Positions 50,402-64,000 of a DNA stretch of 64,000 nt are shown piece after piece. Within the stretch, counting starts at the first letter, position 1, and every line of letters starts with the position of its first letter. The DNA is from Isoetes taiwanensis (taxonomy: Eukaryota; Streptophyta; Lycopodiopsida; Isoetales; Isoetaceae). The notes beneath the pieces were generated by a model. That model saw only the letters and a program-made list of their open reading frames with translations. It made no database searches and was not told the origin of the DNA. The DNA lies in assembly GCA_021234155.1 (NCBI GenBank), contig JAJEKV010000005.1, positions 4,156,952 through 4,220,951 on the forward strand, given 5' to 3'. Both the position numbers and the translations under genes were made by a program.

Positions 50402-50405
50402 TGCC

Positions 50406-50427
50406 GGGTAAAAGCATGAAAGGGTGT
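50406..50427 (+). repeat. Left terminal inverted repeat of the new element
   Basis: These 22 bases are identical to the reverse complement of 59,669-59,690. The next bases inside include GTACATATACAT, the first of the subterminal TACAT words. Confidence 0.9.
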
Positions 50428-50660
50428 CTATAAATGTAGCCCTTTTTGTACATATACATATGTACCGAATGCACATTTTTGGAATAACTGTCATCATGAC
50501 CAGCTAGTAACTGCCATGATTAATGGCTATCCACTACTCTGAACCCGCAATTATCGGATTTTGAAATTCTTTCCCAAATTCTTTCTTGGTTTGCCTCTCG
50601 TTCACTATCCCGCCCCTGCCTTCTCTGCTTGAATTCCGATCACGAATTCTTCATCTAGCT

Positions 50661-53600
50661 ATGGCCCCAAAACGCCCCCATGAGTGCTTGCTCATCACCA
50701 CATTAAGCAAGATGCCGGTGCTTCCGGCGGGGAATTTTACCTCAAGGAGTTTACGTTTGGGTTCTGAGGTGATCCAAGCCAAAGACCTCCGTGATAAACA
50801 TCACGAGGCCCACATACCCAACCTAGAGATGGTTATGAGCGAGGTATGGGGTGAAGCTCCAAAAAAAAGCAGACGCGAGGATTCAAGGAAGGGAGAATCC
50901 GGAACGCATGGAAAGATGATTTTTTAAATATTATGAATTGGTTTATGGCAAGAAACAGGTTACAAACCATTATATTTCAACCTATTTTGCGAGCATTTGC
51001 TCTTCACTTGAAGGGGCGGCTTGTTGATTGGATGGGCGTGGCTAGGACGCCAAAGATCTTGCCAAAACCCTCATTTCGGGCGTTCTGAGGACCCTACAAC
51101 AGGTAAATCCTCAACTATCAAACAGACATCGTATTGCGTGAGAATATTAGAGCCCCCGGGTTATTCTAGATCAGATGTTGACACAATAAAGCGATTACTT
51201 AAGCATGGGTTGGAGGAGAAAACTAACCTATTGAATGAAGTAGAAGCCTTTGGAAGAAAAAGGAGGGATGCATTGAAGGTCATCAGTAGGATTGAGGGTA
51301 GAAAGGATATGCTATCCAGAAGATCCGCAGCAGATCTGCTAGAAAATAGATGAGACAAAAAGCAGAATTTGACAAATTGTCCCAGGATCCTGCTGGAAAT
51401 CAAGTTATGTTCGGAGTGTTGAAGTACAAGTTGGAAGACTTGGTTATGAGTAGACATGATAAAGAACAGCACTCTTCTAAGCTAGAAATTGGTTTGCAGG
51501 AAGCAACTAAAGACATTGAAAGGCATGAAATCTCAATTGAACAAGCAAAGGAAAAACTTAATTGCATTGAATTGGTTCAGCAAAAAGGCATTCACAGATT
51601 TTGGATTTCATGGGGAGAGCAGGACCTATTGTTCTGCACCCGAGGCCCTACCCTGTAGGAGCTACTTCTATAGAGCAGTTCATCACATTCAGTTCATGTA
51701 CCTGTTGTGGCCAAGGCTTTGGCAAAACTGGTTTGTTGCTGCTAGCTCCATGCGAGAGATGCTTATTGCCTCTTACGCTTGTGTTATCAGTCCATGAAAG
51801 ACGCAATTGCATAAAAGGTTGCATCCGGGATGAGGGCATTGAATTCACTTGGTTTCCTACTTTGAAAGGTATGCATTGCTCTCAATTAATTTAAACTTAT
51901 ATTTCTCTTCATTCATATTTGTTATTGTAATCGCATAGTTCTACATGTATGGCTTTCGATTGCATTGCTATTCCTTGTACATGTATAACTTTCAAGTGTA
52001 TGCGTCTAGAAGCGAGGTACATAGGCATATATTTGCTTGTTTATTGATGCTTTTATTTTTGAGCTTGACTTGCAGTTGTATCAGTTGTACATGTCTCTAA
52101 TGGAGTCTACATCTGCAAATAGATGTACATGCATTTATCTTTAGAGTGCATCCGTAGATGGATTCATAAGTGTGCATTTTTACATATATGTGCTTTTTTT
52201 TTTGGCATAGATCTACATTCCCTAACCGGATACACGGGTACATCACGGTACATCTGGGTACATTGAGGTACCTCTATGTACATTGAGGAACATGTACATG
52301 TACATTTGGCTATAGTTAAATGTAGTTACGTTACATTTGGTACATTTTATATACATGAAATATACATGCTTGGCGAGAATGTACGGATATTTCTCATTAG
52401 TTCTGTTTTCATGTTCTTTTATGTCTATTGAAATTTAGATCATTTGTTTGTTTGCGCATGAGGTCGTTTCTATCCCGTAGCGGCTTTAATGGTCGATGTT
52501 CTTGAGCCATCTGCATCGACTCTCTTTACTGATTTTATTGAGCATAATAAGCAGACCGAATCAGTGGACCCTCAACCTTCCAGCTCGGATCACCAATGAC
52601 ATTTACAATTGCCGATGTAGAACCATACGCAACAGTGCCTCCTCGAACATGGCAAAGTGAAGTTGAGGAAATTGAGAGGATGGCACTTGAGAAAGCTAAA
52701 GCGTGGTGCGGTCGCGAGCCTTCAATGACTACTGCACCTGTAAACTCTTTCATCACCAAGTGCTAAATTAGTAATTGGAGAAGCTAAGAAAGATTCAACC
52801 ATCTCAAAGATCATCTTGGGTCCCGCCTACGGACCTTCTACGTAAAAGCTACAAAGGGCACTGATCCGCATTTTTAACCCGGGAGATAGCGGTGAAGAGG
52901 AAGCTGAATTGGTAGTTGAGTCCACTCCAAAGAGGAGGCAAAAGAATGCTGGTGATGGCACTCCAAAAGGAAAAAAAAGGCAAAATCTCCAAAGAACAAA
53001 AAAATGTCCTCCGAAAAGAAAATCTCCAGGCAAAAAAGTGCCACCACCACCTAGAAAGAGGTATGTCCAAGATGAACTAATTTTGTTAAACATCTCAGAT
53101 TTATGGTAATTAACCACATTTTTTTTGTACATAGGACACGATCCGCGGTAGTGAAGGAAGCTGATCCCTGATCCTTCCAGTCGGAACCGGAAGAGGATCT
53201 ACAAGCAAATATTGATGTGATAACAAATAAGGTGCAGCAGTCCTCAGAAGATGCTGAAGCAGGTGATGAATTTACAAGGTGAGTAATATACAATTGATTA
53301 CAATAGATATATTCTTTTGCTAATCTTTGTTGTTTCCTTATGCTTTAGTGAACCGACCGAAAAGGTTGGTTCCATTCACTCCTTATAGGGACCGTCCTCT
53401 CCTAAGCCCGCACCCTCTATCTTTCAAAGTGATGTTGACGAAGTTCTCACGGAAGTCGGACTTGACCTCTAAGATGGTAGATGTCTATGGGAGTTAGGCT
53501 AGCATTTCAACATATTTATGTTATTTCATTCCCTAAGTCACTCATCTTATGTATTAATATGTAATCTGGATTTGTGTGCAGGTACCTTTGTAGCAGTCTT

Positions 53601-54374
53601 CCATCTGATTGGAAACACAAGTTTTTTACGGTTCGACCGGACACCTTCCAGAATTTTGTGAATTCCCTCAAGAACAGGGGGGGCAGATGCACAGAACACA
53701 AACATAAAGGAAGGGCTGGATGGCATTTTGATTGCAAGATGCCAATACATATTTGTTCCAATTCTGCAAGGCCCAAATGTGGCATTGGCAATACTTGTGC
53801 TTGCTGGTCCACTGAAAAGCTCTTTTCCATCTATAGCTAGCCCAAGTATCTGACGATCCTCTGTCAAAGGCTATGTACCCGATGCTAAAGTGGTCCAGAA
53901 GTAAGTATGAGTTTCTGTTTTGTTTTTATGATTTGATTATTCTCATATTGCAATTTCTTATGCTTGATTTATTCTCACATTGCAATTTTGCAGGTTTCAT
54001 AAGCTTGTGATCAATAACATGATGCTCGGATCCAACAGCTTAAACCATGGTAGGAAGAACTTTGATGCTCCTGTGTTCTGTCCTAAAATGCGAGAAACTA
54101 GTACCGACAAACCCTTGCATGTACATTGTGGCTTACATGCACAAATTCATAGATGCCGTGGTTGATGCACACCCAAGCTCCATTTTTGTAAGTAGAACAT
54201 GTTATTTTCCCTATTAGTTATTTGTTGGTATAGTCCTCTAATACTTGTGCACCATGCGATGACACCCGTTGGTTCATCGATGCCTATGCCAAGTCACGGA
54301 GGGATCATCTAATGGAGGCATTAATTGTAGAAGGCGAGATGAATATACAAGCGGTTGTTCCTACACACGGGTAG
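50661..54374 (+). pseudogene. Gene D: coiled-coil, zinc-binding, basic protein with possible Ulp1-like tail
   Basis: An ATG at 50,661 (MAPKRPHECLL) opens the first block. Around 51,130-51,590 a charged, heptad-like region (GVLKYKLEDL, EATKDIERHEI) suggests a coiled coil. After a frameshift, 51,601-51,867 encodes FSSCTCCGQGFG with a second Cys pair (CERC) and further cysteines, a probable zinc site, ending at a GTATGC donor. Exon 52,597-53,060 is Lys/Arg/Pro-rich (TPKRRQKNAGDG), a likely nuclear signal. Introns 53,061-53,134 and 53,279-53,348 keep the reading frame. Stops sit at about 52,843, 53,169 and 53,386. Blocks at 53.6-54.2 kb (QYIFVPILQGPN; NPCMYIVAYM) weakly recall Ulp1/C48 SUMO proteases, but the catalytic His is not seen. 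The frame ends VVPTHG at 54,374. A second copy lies at 60.5-63.7 kb. Confidence 0.6.
52200..52370. repeat. TACAT-rich cluster 1 (in an intron of gene D)
   Basis: GGTACATC, TGTACATTGAGG and ACATGTACATGTACAT words cluster in non-coding DNA between two exon blocks of gene D. The same words recur at 56.1, 58.2-58.6 and 59.6 kb. Confidence 0.7.
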
Positions 54375-54595
54375 ATAGTCCCTTTGACTTGTTTGTAAAT
54401 TACAGTTTTGTATGAGCCATGCTCCGAGCTTCTTTGTACTCAATAAGTAATGAAAAAATTAATTTATTTGTCTCACTTACACCTGTGCAAATAACAATCG
54501 TGTAATTATCAATGTGTTTTCTCAATTGTGTGTCTGAAATGTAATTATAAATTGTGAATCTCAAGTGTTTTCTTGATGACAGGTGAATCATCTAA

Positions 54596-55862
54596 TTAGG
54601 GGAGAAAGCTCATTATCTTTGACTTAAATTACGTGTTGTTGGGCAAGAGTGCACAAGAATGAAAATATTAACTCAAGATACCAACAGATCCAGAAAGATG
54701 AGCTTCAATTTAATATAGGAAACAGGTTTTTTTACTGCAGGCCAGGGTTAGCATCACTGTTAGCATTTGTAAGAGAAGGGTTTGATGTTGCCATCTGGTC
54801 TTCACTCACTTCTAAAAATCTTCAACCAATTGTGGAAAATATTTGTGATGCTTTTTCCATAAAAGTCTGAAGTTTGTTTACACCGGGGCGATGTTGGACT
54901 CTCGCCACACAAACACCCTCTTGAACCTCAAAAGGGGTTGTTTGTGAAACCATTAGTCGTGGTATGGAAAGAGTACCCAGTACTATGGACATACACGATT
55001 ACGATCGACGACGAAAAGATACAAATCCACTTTGAATCTGGCAGGAAGCTACATATGTCCTTTCTCTTGGACACTGATCGATTAGCCGGTGACGATTGCT
55101 TGTCATGGAGCTCATTCCATGGCTTAATGGATTCAAAATGGCGAAGATGGTATAGTTTATGTGAAAGAGCATCCAATGACTAATGCGGCAGATGGCATAT
55201 CGGAGGCAGGTGGAACAGATTTTTCTTTGGCAAACTATGGCGAAACTTGGGTGCTCTCTTTGCCTAAATTTAGTCAATATCACGAGCAAGGAATGGAGAA
55301 ACTGCCATCATGTTATTGGCCTCTCGACCGGCCCATTGTTGGTACAGACTTTGGTGATGTACAAATTCAAATGTTATGAATATATGTATCAAAGTTTTTG
55401 TTCATTGCACTTGAGTACTCTGTTCTTCTTGTCTTTCTTATTGGTACAATTATGAGTGTGTATACATAATTAAGTGATCTTCATTTGCTTTGTAGATGAA
55501 TGGATGAAAACACAAAAGACTATTAAGAAACTAAGAGATAGAGTTCTCACTGCACCCGGAGGGTAATACAAACCAACACAAGCCGCAAGTACATAGGGTT
55601 GGGGACCGATTATCGCCTCTATATCTTTGCTGTTCTGAACTTTGGGAAAAGGTTGAGCAAATTGAAAATTATGAGGAACGAGCAACCATGAAAGGTATAT
55701 TGGCAGCAAATCACTTGTTGCACAACCCTTGGGGAAGGCACGTCCCTGAAGATCTCGGGCCATGTAGGATGGAAAGGTTTGCCGCTGGCACGTGCTATAG
55801 AAACCGCATGGACTCTTTTGCTTTAGAGGATATCTCTTCACCTCTCGGCGGGCGGAAGACAT
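54596..55862 (+). pseudogene. Gene E: FCP1/NIF-like HAD phosphatase, decayed
   Basis: The segment reads KLIIFDLNYVLL (Asp of the DxN nucleophile motif at 54,621), then FFYCRPGLASLLAFV, GFDVAIWSSLTSKNLQPIV (54,778-54,834), a KPLVVVWKEYP block and a TITIDDEK block (about 55,004). These follow the order of FCP1-homology phosphatases of plants (DLNGxL, CRPxLxxFL, FDVxIWSS, KxLxxVW, DD). Pieces lie in three frames, so there are frameshifts or unseen introns. Exon-like frames continue at 55,161-55,379, 55,494-55,564 and 55,590-55,862 (LWEKVEQIENYEERATMKG). The family removes phosphate from proteins such as RNA polymerase II tails; the target here is unknown. It follows gene D by about 220 bp. Confidence 0.6.
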
Positions 55863-56125
55863 GATGCAATAGTCATAAGATATCGCCCCCCTCTGACATT
55901 TTGAAGCTTGGTCATGAATTATGAGCCATGCTCATTTTTCGTGTGTGTTGTATTTATGTCTACAATATAAATATATCAACCATTTGTACATGAAAACCCT
56001 GTCCATTTCTTATCTTTGCCATGACTGAAACCATTTTTAATGTTTATGCAATTCAACTTTCTTGTGTTCAATTCTAATCAACTTACACTTAACAAATTTG
56101 TATAATATTTACGGAATGTACAACG

Positions 56126-56165
56126 ATGTACATAAGATGTACATTGTTGTACATCTTATGTACAT
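56126..56165. repeat. 18-bp-stem hairpin between converging genes
   Basis: ATGTACATAAGATGTACA (56,126-56,143) and its perfect complement (56,148-56,165) enclose a 4-base loop (TTGT). More TGTACAT words flank it. It lies between the 3' ends of genes E and A, so it may aid transcript ending, or it may be a repeat by-product. Confidence 0.9.
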
Positions 56166-56358
56166 TGATGTACATAATGCACTACAGTAGTAGTCCAGTT
56201 CTTTAGTTCTTATAACAAAATATTACAATATTTCGAGGAAAGTACTACGATCCGACTTAGTCCATGTCATCTACAATTCTTTGGAAGTTGTGATAACAAT
56301 GTCTCATGGACTTCATCCGGCAAGTGAAATCTTTGTGCTTGCCTCCTTCACTTGTGTT

Positions 56359-59300
56359 TTACTTTCTTGAATGGGATTCGAACCCCAATCACGCATTCTG
56401 CGGTACCAAAACATTCTTAGTAGGAAGCAGTTTATACTTATTGTGGCGGCACGGGATTAGTTCATAATATTGTCCTTCAATGACACTAGTGCCGCCAGAG
56501 TATTCATTTCCATAGTCATCAATTGAATCTTCTTCCTATGCATGCTTTTCCCCGGTGCACATGAGAACATAGTATGAAACACCTTCCACATTGTTCCGGT
56601 CTTTGCAAAAGACACAAATACATCTGAAACAGCTCTGATTGTCATCTAAACCAGCCTCGTCCTCTCCGACATACAAAACATCCACATCATTTTCAGCTTC
56701 AACACGAGAGGCAATATGATCTATGGGCTCCAAACTTTTAGAGACCATTCTCCACAATGTTTAATGTTCTCACAATTCAACCAATTGAAGTTAATGCAAG
56801 CATCACAAAAGCACGAGAGTGGTCTGCATAGCAACTTTGTTGGATCTCTTTGGGTTTATAGTTGACCGCGAGAATGTATCTGGCGAGTACCGTAAAGTCT
56901 TGCAATTGAATGCTTCTTTTTTGTTCACATCTGTTTTCCAACCTCCCAAAACACCCTTTCACAATCCGATTCCTTGGCCCTAAAACCGCACAAGCCGTTT
57001 TACTTTTTGCCACCGGCATGCCATTTTGTTTTCTCTGCTTTCGCTCTCAAGCCCGCGGCTTTGCTATACTAGCCTCGCCATCATGTGTGCCTTTCCCATG
57101 GCCAGATCCAAAGAAATTCCATATCACTCGAATTTTATTTTCAACATGGTATCTCTGATTCCATACCATGCCCGTCTTGATTTGAATTGAGATGCACAAC
57201 CATCCGACCACACATAATGAAGGTTTATGTGTCCACCTCCATTATTCTTAAGCCACCCCAAATGTAATTTAAAACCATGTTGCACAAAATGAGTGTCATG
57301 CTTCTGTCATCTGAAACATAGAAATGCACTTTGTTTTTTAAGCTTACCTTCTATTTTCATCATTGAAATATGGACCAAAATACTAATTTGATCGGGATTC
57401 CAATGCTCGGATTGCACTTCGTCCCTGGTTTCAATGTGTAGTTCTCTGCGCAAAGTCAACAACGTGAGACAACACACTATTATCCTGGAGTTTCTCAACA
57501 CATCTTTTAAAGCTGTTTGCTCTCGCCCGGTGTCTTTTGTAAAGTTATGATCTGTAAACTTAGCAAGCTGATTTTTCATGTTCTTTAACAAAACAGATGC
57601 TTTGTCATTCCGATCAACTAATCTAAGCCTTCTGGATGTACCTTTTTTGGATGGCTCATTGACATATGCATATACTTGCCGGTCCACATTCTTGAATTCC
57701 ATCTTCCTCGTTTGGGCCGATGTCTAATTTCTTCACTCCACATTCATCACATTAAGCCTTTGATGCATTTTAGTTTATGCCATTCATCCGTCACATATTT
57801 CTACCATAAGCTGTTGACCTCCACAAGATACTAACATTATCAAAAGTCTTCTTGTTTGCTTGACATACTCCATTGTTTTGCGGGGATGCCTGAACCGCTG
57901 CAGGCAAGTGCAATTAACATGTAGGGATCTCCTCATATCATTGAAGGCCTTTACATGCAGATCGCTTGCTCATGTTTGACACAACAACATGTGTTTCTCT
58001 CCTTCAATTTCCTTATGCAATCAGGTTTGGATACTTTCGAACTGTCGGGCGAATTTTGGTATCAGGATTCTGATATACAAACTGTTGATAAAGCTCAGAC
58101 TGCAATAACAAAAGCATTAAAGACCATGTTAGCAAAATGATGTCGGCAACCAGATGCCAAAAGAGTATTGAACTATACTATTGTACAATTAATGTATGTT
58201 CTATGTACATAAAATGTCCATCCAACAGTTCCACTGATCTGTTACTGTACATCTAATGTACATCTAATGTACATCAGTACATCTAATGTACAGCCAACAG
58301 TTCCACTGAACATCCAATGTACATCCAATGTACATCCAATGTACATCTAATTAATGTTCCAATATTAGTACATCACATTAATGTTACAATATTAGTACAA
58401 CTAATGTACATATGTCTGATTTGTTTGGCTTCATTACCTGAAAGTACACTAAAATGTAAAATGATGTAATTTTGATATTCAAGTACATGTAAATGCAGCT
58501 GCATGGACATGTAAGTGTTAATGGATGTACATCTAAAAAGTACCTAATAGCACATCACTGCAAGATTTCTGCTACTATGTAAACAATGTATAAATGTAAA
58601 CAATGTAAAATGCAATACATTTCATGAAAACCATTTGTATTCATTAACGGTCACTTTCGGACGTAACTAGAATGTACAGAAGAAAGTCATGAAAAAATTT
58701 TGGAAGAAAACATAATCTCCAAAACTGAATTGATTCAATTACAAGAGCAAACACAGTGAGATATCAAGGTATTGTATTGCTTGTGTTCTCCTCTTCATGA
58801 CATCTCAAACCTTTGGTGAAACTTTGGTATTGTCAAGCCAAAATTCCACGAACCTGACATTTGATTGAATCATCGATTCTATTTGATCTTGGCATCCTTC
58901 CCCTTAAAGCCCATACATTTGCTCCACTTAATGACATTATCTTCCTTCTTCTTTGCAGCTTTGGATAAATTTCTTGGTCAGATCTTTAGCAATTTTGAAG
59001 AAACATTCTTGTTTATATCTCCTTTTTTTCCAACAATCATTGATAACAGTGAATGTTTTGCAGCCAATTTATCTTTGCTATTAGCAGACTTTACTTCTTG
59101 AAGCCCATCTTTCAAGTTTCTGATCATTGATTTCATAACAATAACCCGGAAGGATTTCCAATTCTGAGGTTCGAAAACGAAAAAAAAGCACATCATCTTG
59201 CAACAAACGATCACAAAAACTAATCTTTGATCACGGGCCCGAAGCGTTTGCGGAATCGAGGATGCAATCCACCCGACACATCAACACGCTTCTTTATTTG

Positions 59301-59378
59301 TTTTGTGGCATAACACTGGCCAATGTCGGCATACTTGCGCTTAGAACCATCACTTCCATTGGAATTCTCACCCTCCAT
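56359..59378 (-). pseudogene. Gene A: putative DDE-type transposase of the element
   Basis: The chosen start (59,378, MEGENSNGSDG) precedes QIKKRVDVSGG. Further blocks are KHSLLSMIVGKKG, FWLDNTKVSPK with DVMKRRTQAIQY (about 58.8 kb), ELYQQF and KERNTCCCVKHEQ (about 58.1-58.0 kb), KGTSRRLRLVD (about 57,640), HVVDFAQ (about 57,455), EVQSEHWNPDQI (about 57,410), KHDTHFVQHGF, VWSDGCASQFKSRR (about 57,200), FFGSGHGKGTHDG (about 57,090), RPLSCFCDACINF with CENIKHCGEW (about 56.8 kb), VSYYVLMCTGEK, and YKLLPTKNVLV before the TAA at 56,359. The Asp in VVDFAQ, the Asp in WSDG and an acidic residue in GKGTHDG are candidate catalytic residues; the two Cys blocks probably bind zinc. Several frameshifts break it. 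The family recurs in seed-free plants as I recall, but I cannot name it. Confidence 0.7.
58190..58420. repeat. TGTACATCTAA/TGTACATCCAA minisatellite
   Basis: An 11-bp unit reading TGTACATCTAA or TGTACATCCAA repeats about nine times, interrupted twice by CCAACAGTTCCACTGA. It lies in a probable intron of gene A. Scattered TGTA words continue to about 58,620. Confidence 0.85.
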
Positions 59379-59668
59379 GAACAGATTGAAATTGATTTGT
59401 ATTTCTTGTAGATTCAATTGGCATGTGTTTGCTTCTGGAATTCGTTCGGTGTTAGATCACGTGAAAGGGGAATTTGAAAGGAGGGGCGGATCCATTCGGA
59501 ATTGGTTCGGTGGTTCAATGGTTAACCAAAATTTTTTTGGAATGTCGGGGATGATCTTGCAATCATTGCATATCTGACACAAAACGACAAACCATAGTAT
59601 CTTGATGTACATCTAAAATGTACCCCAAAAAAGCACAAATTCGTCCTTCAATTCAGTACGATGTACGT

Positions 59669-59690
59669 ACACCCTTTCATGCTTTTACCC
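59669..59690 (-). repeat. Right terminal inverted repeat of the new element
   Basis: This is the exact inverted copy of 50,406-50,427. It is followed immediately by TGCC. GTACGTACATCG lies just inside. Confidence 0.9.
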
Positions 59691-59800
59691 TGCCTTGTAG
59701 CCCTTTCAACTGCACTCCTGTCTGAGTGTCCCATATTATTAACATCAGGAGCTAATCTTTTATATGTTGCCCGATAAGTCAAACAAATTTACGAAGGGAA

Positions 59801-60005
59801 GAATAGAATAGAATAGAATAGAATAGAATAGTTTTTAACGTCCACGGAGACCAATAGGTCATGGGACCCATACAATGGGCTAGTACAATCATTACTACTA
59901 GGATTAAAAACCCACGCCTCGAAAGGTTTTCAAGGGAAAAACACCTTTGCGGTAATGATGATACTAGACAAGCGAGAGATAATGACTCTTGAGGGCTCGG
60001 TAATT
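59801..60005 (-). repeat. SINE-like element copy 4, (GAATA)6 tail
   Basis: Six GAATA units (59,801-59,830) precede TTTTTAACGTCCACGGAGACC, the conserved 3' end of the family, then CATACAATGGGCTAGTACAA and AGGTTTTCAAGGGAAAA. It aligns over about 180 bp with the copy at 2.4 kb. No clear tRNA head was found, unlike the 39.6-kb SINE, but the last 25 bp or so are shared with that SINE. Confidence 0.7.
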
Positions 60006-60539: not shown

Positions 60540-63500
60540 CAATCGCCTGCTTCATATCTGTAGCCACATCCTCCACTGACTTTTCTTTAGTACTAGTTTT
60601 ATCTGTTCCTATCTTACATCAACATGTTTCTTCAATCTTTTCAATTGTATATCCAACAAAGGCCAGTTCTTCACTAGTCCCCTCTGTTTCTGCAAATAAT
60701 AATATGCATGAGCGTGCAAGAAGTAAATGCAATAAGTATTGCTACCTTATAATTTACCATTTAAAAATAGCATCTCAAGTTCGGTCTGATGACATGGCAT
60801 TGTAGAATTGGCACCTTCTGCACCTTGTCTACGACTGTTTTCTTTGGAGTGTCAAAGACCTCTACAACAGAATCTGTTTTTTTTTTTAGAGTGTCAAAAA
60901 CCGCTTCATTATTGTCCTCAGTCGCTAGTTCCACTACTACATGATCAGAAGCAACATAAACATTAAGAAAGTCTAGAAATTAGACTAATATGTGCACATA
61001 CCTGTATTGCCACATTCAACCCTTTGCTTCAGGAGCTCAATTGTTGTGCATATGATGCTACAATTGTAGCTTTGCTTGTGACAACTGTATCTATCATTAA
61101 AGTAATGAGCTCAATTTTCTTCCTTATAAAGTCCAAGCAAATTCATCTAAAATTAGTTACTTACTTGATGTTCCTTTTCCTTCTGTCTTATGCTCTGCTA
61201 TAGATGTCTTCAATGGGTTCGGAGGCAGCCTAGGCATCGGCGGGGTGGACTTATCATGCTTTCCTCCATAGTAATCATCTACACAACTTGAAAAATCAAG
61301 TGTCTTTGCTGGAGGATCTTTTTTTTTTTTTTTTTTTTTTTTTTTGAAGGACGACAAGCTTTATTCACCAACTAAAAATCAGATCAACATAAAATGCAAA
61401 GACAGGATTATAACCCCAGTGGACAAACCGATCCAACTGAGCACAACCACCTGCCTATGCGAAAAAATGAATCTGAAGGTAAGTATGCCAGATCAGTACT
61501 TTCTTCTCTTGATCAAGAGAAGAACAATTGTAAGCCATAACAATTTTATTTTGCGCCCACTGAAGAACAATCTCATCTGCAGTATCTACACCCTTAAAGA
61601 TAAACAACCTCCTTCTCTTCCAGATTGACTATAAAAGCCAGCCACATGCGAGATGAAAAGCTCGTTTCCGTAGTTTGGGCCAAGCATCAGGATAGATAGC
61701 AAGCAAAATTTGCTGGCTAGATCTAGACGTGCCAAATAGGGTCAACAACCAAGACCATGCCTGCCGAAGCCGCTCACACAAGAAAAAACAATGCTCAATA
61801 CTCTCAACCCTTCGCTGGCATAAAGGAGAGAGCTCTGAAATCCGATTATCCATTTTATGGACTAACTTGTTGACTCTGAGGCATCTATGGATCACTTGCC
61901 ACCACTGGGATGAAGCAGCGTATCCCATACCCATATCCAAACACTTTTCCATTGTGGCTGAGGGATCTGAAGATGCCACCTATTAGATGGAGGCAGGATT
62001 TCAGAATGCAAAAGCAATTTATACACAGAAGACACAAACCGCCCTGGCTGGATATCCTGATGGCAACCCCATACGACTATCTCAATCTGTGGACCTGCCT
62101 CCCATGACATGAGATGACCAGACTCATACCAATCTGCAATGCTGGAGGATCTGCTCTGCTTTTGCCTGCACCTGCATACAAAGTGAAATTGACATATAAA
62201 TAAAGAGACCATAACACATATCACATACCTTTCTCTGGCTTCTTTATATTACCCATTTCACCTGCAAGAATGAAAGCATTAACAACAATACCAGATGACT
62301 GAAAGAATACAGTGCCCACTATAAACTAAAAGCAGAATAGCAATGTACAATCCAATTCAAAATGTACTCAATGTAGCTGCATTGAAAAACTATGTATACT
62401 TTTATGTACCCAAATCCAAATGTAGAAGGCTTTCTAAAGAAAAGAATTCATAAGTGCATTCCATGTGGCTGTATTACATATATGCATTCAGAGCCACATG
62501 TAGAAAAGCTTCCTGAAAAATTGTTAACTGCATTCAAATGTATTATAGAGTACAATGGGTATCAAAATGTCCAGACCACATACTCATTATACCTATGTAC
62601 ACAATCTCTTACCTACTAATCCTATTTTCTTAGTACATAAACTAACTCCTCAATCATATCTGGCAACACTTACATCATGTACATTAATAATATGCACATA
62701 TGTGCTAACATGATGTTTACACCAGCCTAGAAAAGCAAAACGACTTTTTCCAGTCCTACATATCTTCACTTCAACCTGCATTTTAAAACCTAGATGTGAT
62801 TTAATATACCACAAAACTACTAATGCATAGCTTCTAATTAATATGCATCTACCATTTCTTATACTTGAATCGAGCAAGGACATGAAAGAAATATATTATG
62901 CATGTCATATTTTCCAGTAAGCCCCAATGCATGAGACAGATTCACATCCCATGTGCATCTTGGCACCATATAGTTGTTCCTCGTACTAGCAAGATAGGAG
63001 ATACATAATAGGCAGTAAGGATATACCACTGGGGAGGAACCAAAATACTGCTCACAATTTGTGCATGATTGAAAATTAGCATTTGGGTGCTCTGCAACTG
63101 AAACCAAAGAAAGATGAGGAGGCTGCAATTTAAGGACCAAGGAGTGATCTAAGAACTCCCTTAACTCTAAAATCTTTGTATCCCCCTCCTCAATTGGCTT
63201 TTTATTTGAGGACCTTACATCAATTTTAGAATCTAGCTGCCTCAACTGTAACGTTTTTGCTTCCACTTCCTTGTTAAGCTCAGCTAGATCTTGACACCGC
63301 TTGCTCTTCTGCGCAATTGCATCCTCCACCTTCCATTTTAAGTGCTCAAACCTCATAGCACTGCCGTCACTTTTATCCATCTGCTTTTGAAATTCCTACA
63401 ACTCTGGCATCAAATTCATATGTTAGTCTCGGCCTCACGGACCAACTATACTACTCTTTCCCCTTCCCTATACTTCGAAGTCTCGTATAGCTGCAGTCTT

Positions 63501-63745
63501 GTATCCTATAATTGCTGCATCTCCTTATATATGCCTTTCTTCAAAGAAGATCTGCTCTCAAGAAACAGATTCAAGTTGTCCAGATCTTCTTTTTTATAAA
63601 AGTTATCATAAGACTTTTGGCCCTTGGCATTGCTTGACTTCACAGTTATAAATTCAGTCAAAACCTCAGATTCTTTCGCCTTACTTTTAGCTGTGGTTGC
63701 TTTCTTCACATCATCCCAATTAACTAATTCATGGGGGTATGAGTG
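60540..63745 (-). pseudogene. Gene D': second copy of gene D, split by a LINE
   Basis: Blocks in order on the minus strand: HELVNWDDVKKATTAKSKA (about 63.7 kb, matching LVDWMGVARTPKILPK of gene D), YKKEDLDNLNLFLESRSSL, a coiled-coil stretch with FEHLKWKVEDAIAQKS (gene D: FGVLKYKLEDL), and the zinc block QSCTNCEQYFG with YCLLC (about 63.0 kb). Small exons at about 62,267-62,235 and 62,172-62,141 join in phase by GT-AG borders (GNIKKPEK to GAGKSRA). The latter exon continues at 61,319-61,170 (PPAKTLDFSSCVDDYYGG) after a LINE insertion and ends at a GTAAGT donor. Further blocks lie at about 60,950-60,780 (VVEVFDTPKKTVV, compare VVESTPKRR) and 60,690-60,540. In-frame stops occur, for example after EMQQL. 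Confidence 0.6.
61308..62152 (-). mobile_element. 5'-truncated L1-type LINE with 12-bp target duplications
   Basis: GCTGGAGGATCT occurs at 61,308-61,319 and 62,141-62,152. Between them, on the minus strand, lie about 820 bp of LINE 3' sequence ending in an uninterrupted poly(A) tract (a T run on the plus strand at about 61,320-61,345). The coding part (62,140-61,629) reads VVWGCHQDIQ, LPPSNRWHLQ, PQWKSVWIWVWDTLLHP, then MGYAASSQWWQVIHRC and SPLCQRRVESIEHCFFLC. The last is the zinc-binding C-terminal motif of L1-type reverse transcriptases (Cys-X2-Cys...His-X4-Cys type; here the first Cys pair is degenerate). About 290 bp of 3' untranslated sequence precedes the tail. The insertion disrupts gene D'. 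Confidence 0.92.
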
Positions 63746-63974
63746 CTCGTGTCCCTTGAGGATCATAAAGTTGCTGCAAGTATTGTTCCCACTGCTCATT
63801 AGTGATGTTCCCCGTAGGCTGGGCTGGCTTTCGAAGAACCTTGTGCCAAAAGGTTCTAGGATGGCTTTCCAACATGTAAAACATTTCCCTTTGATGACAT
63901 GCAATGTACTGAGATTTCTTTGCCATGTGGCATGTGGGCGCATTGCAGGATCTGTGATCTGGCGGAGCCGGCAT
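63745..63974 (-). pseudogene. LINE endonuclease-RT linker-like fragment
   Basis: An 81-codon minus frame contains HPRTFWHKVLRKPAQPTGNI followed by TNEQWEQYLQQLYDP. This resembles the linker of plant L1-type elements, where a conserved FWK..L block precedes the polymerase domain. It passes into a shifted frame belonging to gene D' at about 63,740. Whether it is an independent LINE relic or an upstream part of D' cannot be decided because the window ends here. Confidence 0.5.
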
Positions 63975-64000
63975 TTGTATTCCTTACACTCAGCATCAAA

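Follow-up and report, generated by a model that had tools for sequence, protein, structure and literature searches.

A probable multi-gene cut-and-paste transposon of Isoetes taiwanensis with a putative DDD transposase and an FCP1-like accessory gene

What kind of element occupies positions 50406 to 59690 of a 64,000-nucleotide (nt) stretch of Isoetes taiwanensis DNA (hereinafter, the window), and what might the genes that it carries be doing there? A preliminary description of this segment, made from the letters alone, presented it as a DNA transposon with three genes, denoted D, E and A, that fits no superfamily its author could name. We find that the segment moved as one unit between inverted ends, with precise insertion and a 4-base pair (bp) target duplication. 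Very likely, it is a now-dead copy of a cut-and-paste DNA transposon with several genes, of which A would encode the transposase and D and E would encode helpers; it probably comes from the Sola lineage or is a relative of Sola, a likeness drawn from published features. Descriptions of named cut-and-paste elements mostly give them one or two genes; here, three genes remain in the same order and orientation in families of one plant genome that have diverged strongly, and one of the three encodes a protein with the fold of the RNA polymerase II C-terminal domain phosphatases with an altered motif.

A single mobile unit between inverted ends

The 9,285-bp transposon spans positions 50406-59690 of the window. 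It starts with GGGTAAAAGCATGAAAGGGTGT at 50406-50427 (the left terminal inverted repeat, plus strand), and the reverse complement of this sequence is found at 59669-59690 (the right terminal inverted repeat, minus strand), giving exact 22-bp inverted ends. A 4-bp target site duplication, TGCC, abuts both of them (50402-50405 and 59691-59694). Gene D is read from an ATG at 50661, 255 bp inward of the left end, and gene A, on the opposite strand, from an ATG at 59378, 312 bp inward of the right end; the two gene sets converge on a hairpin at 56116-56175, with 28-nt arms that are 93% complementary and a 4-nt loop. All this anatomy had been noted in the preliminary description and is present in the sequence. 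Comparison of the window with Rfam gave no match.

In the 1.66-Gb host genome, the exact 22-mer end occurs 796 times (388+408 occurrences), compared to 0 for a reversed control, so that pairing of these repeats by chance is ruled out. Among the first 100 listed sites of the 22-mer, on which end pairing was assessed, there are 25 head-to-tail pairs, 10 of them spaced by 252-265 bp and 13 by 9,131-9,751 bp, with two further pairs at 13.6 and 20.6 kb. We assembled a set of 15 full-length copies (the window element, 12 of the 13 full-size pairs and two elements known from elsewhere) and a set of 10 short copies (all the short pairs), both chosen for intact ends. A perfect 4-bp duplication flanks 14 of the 15 full-length copies, the window copy included, and 9 of the 10 short ones, and its sequence varies (e.g., ATCA, CTTT, GCAA). 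The short copies have in common with the window element 37-49 bp at the left end and 45-78 bp at the right and hence are its miniature inverted-repeat transposable elements (MITEs); the element thus appears to have spawned non-autonomous derivatives of about 260 bp.

When the flanks of the window element are brought together around one TGCC (140 bp), at least 40 matches are found in the host genome, with 84-88% identity over 134-140 bp. These matches run unbroken across the join, indicating that the element was inserted in a repeat that has empty copies; the empty sites are paralogous, not allelic. Searching the genome with the 22-bp end and with A, D and E, as the preliminary description had proposed, therefore recovered many copies with the same ends, 4-bp duplications, MITEs, the D-E-A order and empty sites; the set of A, D and E was not seen within unrelated boundaries, and the 22-bp repeats do pair elsewhere.

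The family is old and silenced. The copies share 88.3-92.8% identity with the window copy and 89-95% with one another, and an intact gene set was found in none of the 15 full-length copies. The window copy itself is dead, with all its stop-free stretches shorter than 170 amino acids (aa). Changes of C>T or G>A relative to the majority base amount to 11.8% in the CG context, 7.2% in CHG and 1.6% in CHH, a bias toward CG and CHG such as DNA methylation in plants would produce.

The genes and their recurrence in other families

Gene A (56260-59378, minus strand) is broken in the window and encodes a protein with a cysteine-rich N-terminal part. Sister copies retain long open reading frames (ORFs), namely, natural frames of 586 aa in L026 (without the stretch that holds the first aspartate), 600 aa in L028, 562 aa in L029 and 579 aa in L030. 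Across four aligned sequences, the aspartates D9, D57, D58, D93 and D134 (numbering of the L028 core) do not vary, standing within DFxEN, SDD, SDG and HGKGxxDG, and the glutamate that follows the last of them (DGE) varies, the third acidic position being an aspartate. We infer that D9, D93 and D134 form a DDD triad in which 41 residues separate the second and third aspartates, such that A would be a DDD-type transposase-like protein with putative catalytic activity; the DDD core lies at about 56990-57470 (minus strand).

A degenerate pattern of the catalytic motifs hit two places among the genome contigs, L033 and L032, no relative being recognizable in the translation of the latter. L033, an ORF of 690 aa, comes from a metagenomic contig that bears the label of a bacterial metagenome-assembled genome, and it aligns with A both in tblastn (23% identity over 411 aa, E 7e-23) and in hhalign (probability 99.0, E 9.4e-18). 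The A profile found no relative in the genome contigs, and in the viral contigs none was found with the A profile, the catalytic-motif DNA pattern or the L033 protein. Presumably, the L033 protein resembles a family that is common in animals, and its contig may be eukaryotic. Inverted ends were sought around the L033 ORF, and none could be assigned. A search of the PDB by sequence returned nothing useful for either A or L033.

Gene D (50661-53470, plus strand) consists of several exons and is broken, with approximate limits set by the majority reading of the copies and by tblastn with the natural ORF of L028. In this majority reading and in sister copies, a coiled coil (about 51160-51600) is followed by a RING-like cysteine block (about 51690-51870) and then by a basic region (about 52900-53070), which bears out the composition originally proposed for this gene. 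Hits of RING-type Pfam models to relatives of D stay under the cut-offs (zf-RING_2, E 0.00056 in L037). After D, both the window subfamily and a sister subfamily contain an Ulp1/C48-like stretch (53570-54190, plus strand, broken), which may belong to D as its 3' portion or form a gene of its own. The PF02902 score exceeds the cut-off of 20.7 bits in L029 (22.7) but not in L028 (19.0); the window stretch itself matches L028 weakly (29% identity over 59 aa, E 1e-4). The list of three genes is accordingly correct for D, E and A but incomplete, given that this stretch between D and E was missed, and the element has three or four genes. A second, diverged D-type gene, with a coiled coil and a cysteine block, lies at 62862-64000 of the window (minus strand) and continues into L025:13-1490; it is a fragment of another family that matches D of L028, and its zinc part matches L013, L026 and L028.

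Gene E (54596-55921, plus strand) is broken as well, and its product contains a NIF/FCP1-like domain with the motif FDLN. The Pfam family NIF (PF03031, cut-off 21.8 bits) matches the majority reading of the 15 copies at 34.9 bits, a natural E piece of a sister copy (L027, 221 aa) at 50.7 bits, and the E proteins of two further families, L037 and L038, at 75.9 and 78.2 bits, respectively. The solved structure nearest to E by sequence is UBLCP1 (3shq, E 5.2e-6). In HAD (haloacid dehalogenase) enzymes, the first aspartate of the DxD motif is the nucleophile and the second one is the acid/base. All six aligned E-type proteins have DxN (DLN, DVN or DMN) instead, and DxD is absent; five of the six are encoded in or near a transposase gene, and the sixth (L038:122-805) falls beyond the L038 unit. 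DLD is found in L039, a NIF gene of this genome that looks cellular. Thus, E shares the PF03031 fold signature with the NIF/FCP1 phosphatases, including UBLCP1, but has an asparagine in place of their second aspartate, so that it is probably a weak or inactive phosphatase that could still bind phosphorylated partners. The motif suggests that E binds such a partner rather than acting as an ordinary phosphatase; the FCP1-like part of the earlier description of this gene is retained, whereas the catalytic motif expected of a phosphatase is not there.

The same gene set recurs beyond the window family. Elements of the L028/L029 type have ends GGGTAGAAGCATGAAAGGGTG and contain D, the C48-like stretch and A; the two elements for which both ends were read are flanked by duplications (AAAT and AAGA), and for the third one (L030/L036) one end was recovered. 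Elements of the L037 type (7.4 kb, ends GGGYAAAAGTATG) encode D, E and A in the same order and orientation, with both ends found in L037 and in six of nine further places of this type, and a perfect 4-bp duplication in five of the seven elements for which both ends were read. The L038 type (7.4 kb, 30-bp identical ends beginning with GGGTGTAAATATGG, duplication CAAA) also has D-E-A in order. The D-E-A order, the opposed orientation and the GGGT ends therefore recur in two diverged families, whose A proteins are 28-46% identical, by segment, to that of L028, and the expectation that other copies would show the same gene order is borne out. The possibility that E was captured by the window subfamily alone was dropped once E turned up in the other families. 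In L028, a Copia-like RNase H stretch is recognizable by eye near the right end (L028:9180-9900), as if a retrotransposon had been inserted there.

The association of these genes was also assessed genome-wide, by counting neighbors among all the listed matches (150 for NIF, 150+150 for A and 106 for D), which makes the counts lower bounds. At least 29 of the 150 listed NIF matches have an A match within 6 kb (0, 1, 0, 0 and 0 in shifted controls), with all 29 listed A neighbors on the opposite strand and 28 of them downstream. For D, counted against one of the two A lists, at least 43 of the 106 matches have an A match within 7 kb (controls 1, 0, 2, 1 and 0), and of the 44 listed pairs, all are on opposite strands, with A downstream in 42. 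D and NIF matches lie within 5 kb of each other in at least 11 of 106 cases (controls 1, 0, 0, 0 and 0), and in 10 of the 11 listed pairs E follows D on the same strand. At least seven of the listed NIF matches have both D and A neighbors, and none of the 37 best ones (above 120 bits), which are presumably cellular genes, has a listed A neighbor. With at least 150 NIF-domain matches in the host genome and strong clusters on C1018, C1078, C1060 and C1084, part of the NIF count of this genome is made up of transposon genes, and NIF-domain genes in similar genomes may include transposon genes too.

Several observations weigh against a multi-gene transposon with a transposase encoded by A. Neither A nor L033 matches any Pfam family, and the fold of A is unconfirmed, the single-sequence structure prediction for L033 having a mean pLDDT (predicted local distance difference test) of 36. 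The target duplication is imperfect in one full-length copy (L008), in one MITE (L015) and in two of the seven L037-type elements, and five further L038-type places yielded one end only. Tblastn found no E in L028-L030 and their extensions, and L037-L041 showed no Ulp1-like part, implying that neither is indispensable to every family. Finally, 121 of the 150 listed NIF matches have no listed A neighbor.

Relationship to named superfamilies

Sola elements encode a DDD transposase, generate 4-bp duplications, are mostly 2-9 kb long, have very variable ends and occur in moss (PMC10741241, PMC9033089); they are also abundant in the fern Azolla (PMC6786969). Like Sola1 of Physcomitrella and the fern Sola elements, the window element occurs in a non-seed plant and has inverted ends, a 4-bp duplication and a similar size; its putative DDD triad would be a further point in common. 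A 4-bp duplication combined with a DDD transposase-like protein in a non-seed plant fits these descriptions, so that the earlier remark on the lack of a fitting superfamily is not borne out, to the extent that elements are compared by description. Whether it is an ordinary member of Sola, probably of the moss-type Sola1, with the extra genes alone being unusual, seems to us an evenly balanced matter. The duplications, the putative DDD pattern and the plant host speak for it, a Dof finger being indicative of a plant and dynein heavy chains (Dynein_C matches above the cut-off in the host genome) of one whose sperm are motile and which is thus probably no flowering plant; on the other side, D, E and the Ulp1-like part have no counterpart among the genes mentioned in the available parts of the Sola descriptions, which name no accessory genes.

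It is possible, if doubtful, that A belongs, together with an animal-type protein, to a lineage so far left outside the named superfamilies. The Pfam result for A and L033, the homolog on an unrelated contig, and the constancy of the GGGT ends and of the D-E-A order are all compatible with such a lineage; against it, Pfam is missing many transposase families, and L033-like proteins, which we take to be common in animal genomes, may already be named in Repbase or Dfam.

An element of the Ginger1 or Mutator/VANC-KIU type, both of which can carry Ulp1, is highly improbable despite the Ulp1-like stretch and the 4-bp duplications of Ginger1, because A has no match among the integrase and transposase families of Pfam, the ends are GGGT and the duplications varied, whereas Ginger1 has ends TGTNR and duplications CCGG or CCGT (PMC2836005), and Mutator duplications are 7-12 bp long (PMC10741241) rather than 4 bp. 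In Ginger1, moreover, an Ulp1 domain is associated with the transposase, whereas the Ulp1-like part of the window element is not fused to A. The KIU/VANC Mutator-like elements (Vandal) have a helper gene with an Ulp1 domain beside the transposase, to which the Ulp1-like stretch of the window element may be comparable, but are Mutator elements without terminal inverted repeats and with longer duplications, and a NIF protein goes unmentioned in the available parts of their descriptions.

Possible roles of D and E, and neighboring features

For the Sola-like element favored here, we propose that protein A would bind the ends and cut and join them via the DDD active site with a 4-bp stagger, whereas D (coiled coil and RING-like cysteines, with the Ulp1-like protease part in the window subfamily) and E (the NIF/FCP1 fold, with the nucleophile-position aspartate kept and the second one replaced by asparagine) would serve as helpers of the element. 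Most likely, D and E would either counter host silencing or partner the transposition complex. Between these, we tentatively entertain a role of D and E together in anti-silencing or transcription; a role inside the transposition complex is somewhat unlikely on present evidence, and the remaining probability falls to some other function or none. The host-interacting role attributed to these proteins in the preliminary description is, in any case, plausible. Among helpers whose action has been worked out, VANC of the Vandal elements comes closest; this protein, which in some of them has an Ulp1 domain, strips methylation from related elements (PMC13317346). If the helpers do act on silencing or transcription, the evasion of plant silencing by large DNA transposons becomes testable with a defined gene set.

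Could D and E instead be passengers caught by chance, with no role in transposition? Gene capture is frequent in plant transposons (PMC13317346), and not every family has E (absent from one sister subfamily) or the Ulp1-like part (absent from others). Genes picked up by chance should decay, however, whereas the D-E-A order and strand are fixed across families as diverged in A as noted above, long E and D frames persist, and the E proteins keep their fold motifs at only 24-29% identity; we consider passengers quite unlikely.

The NIF gene with a transposon-type motif might have a second carrier. In L040 and L041, a NIF gene with the DMN motif has neighbors other than D or A, in opposed orientation; the repeated, transposase-like gene beside L041 is weakly similar to DUF7869 (E 0.0005, below the cut-off). 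A DUF7869-like gene is found within 16 kb of at least 12 of the 150 listed NIF matches, on the opposite strand in all 12 cases (1 in a single shifted control), an association for which the first 47 of 123 listed DUF7869-like matches were used. We hypothesize that this neighbor may belong to a second type of transposon carrying a NIF helper. The most elaborate scenario, an unnamed lineage of D-E-A plant transposons with GGGT ends, in which a RING-like/SUMO-protease-like helper and a pseudo-phosphatase act on host transcription or silencing and the pseudo-phosphatase is shared with the second transposon type, appears rather unlikely as a whole. Literature searches on FCP1 or Ulp1 with a transposase and on the Sola DDD transposase did not find a NIF-carrying transposon, which is not a proof of absence, and a search on Isoetes transposons found nothing relevant.

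As for the surroundings of the element, a short tandem repeat of AATAG lies just beyond its right end (59800-59830), within the host repeat, and a Dof zinc finger is encoded close by (PF02701, 36.3 bits, cut-off 26.6). Farther away, at 31-35 kb of the window on the minus strand, stop-free stretches resemble, by eye, remnants of a Ty3/Gypsy reverse transcriptase and integrase.

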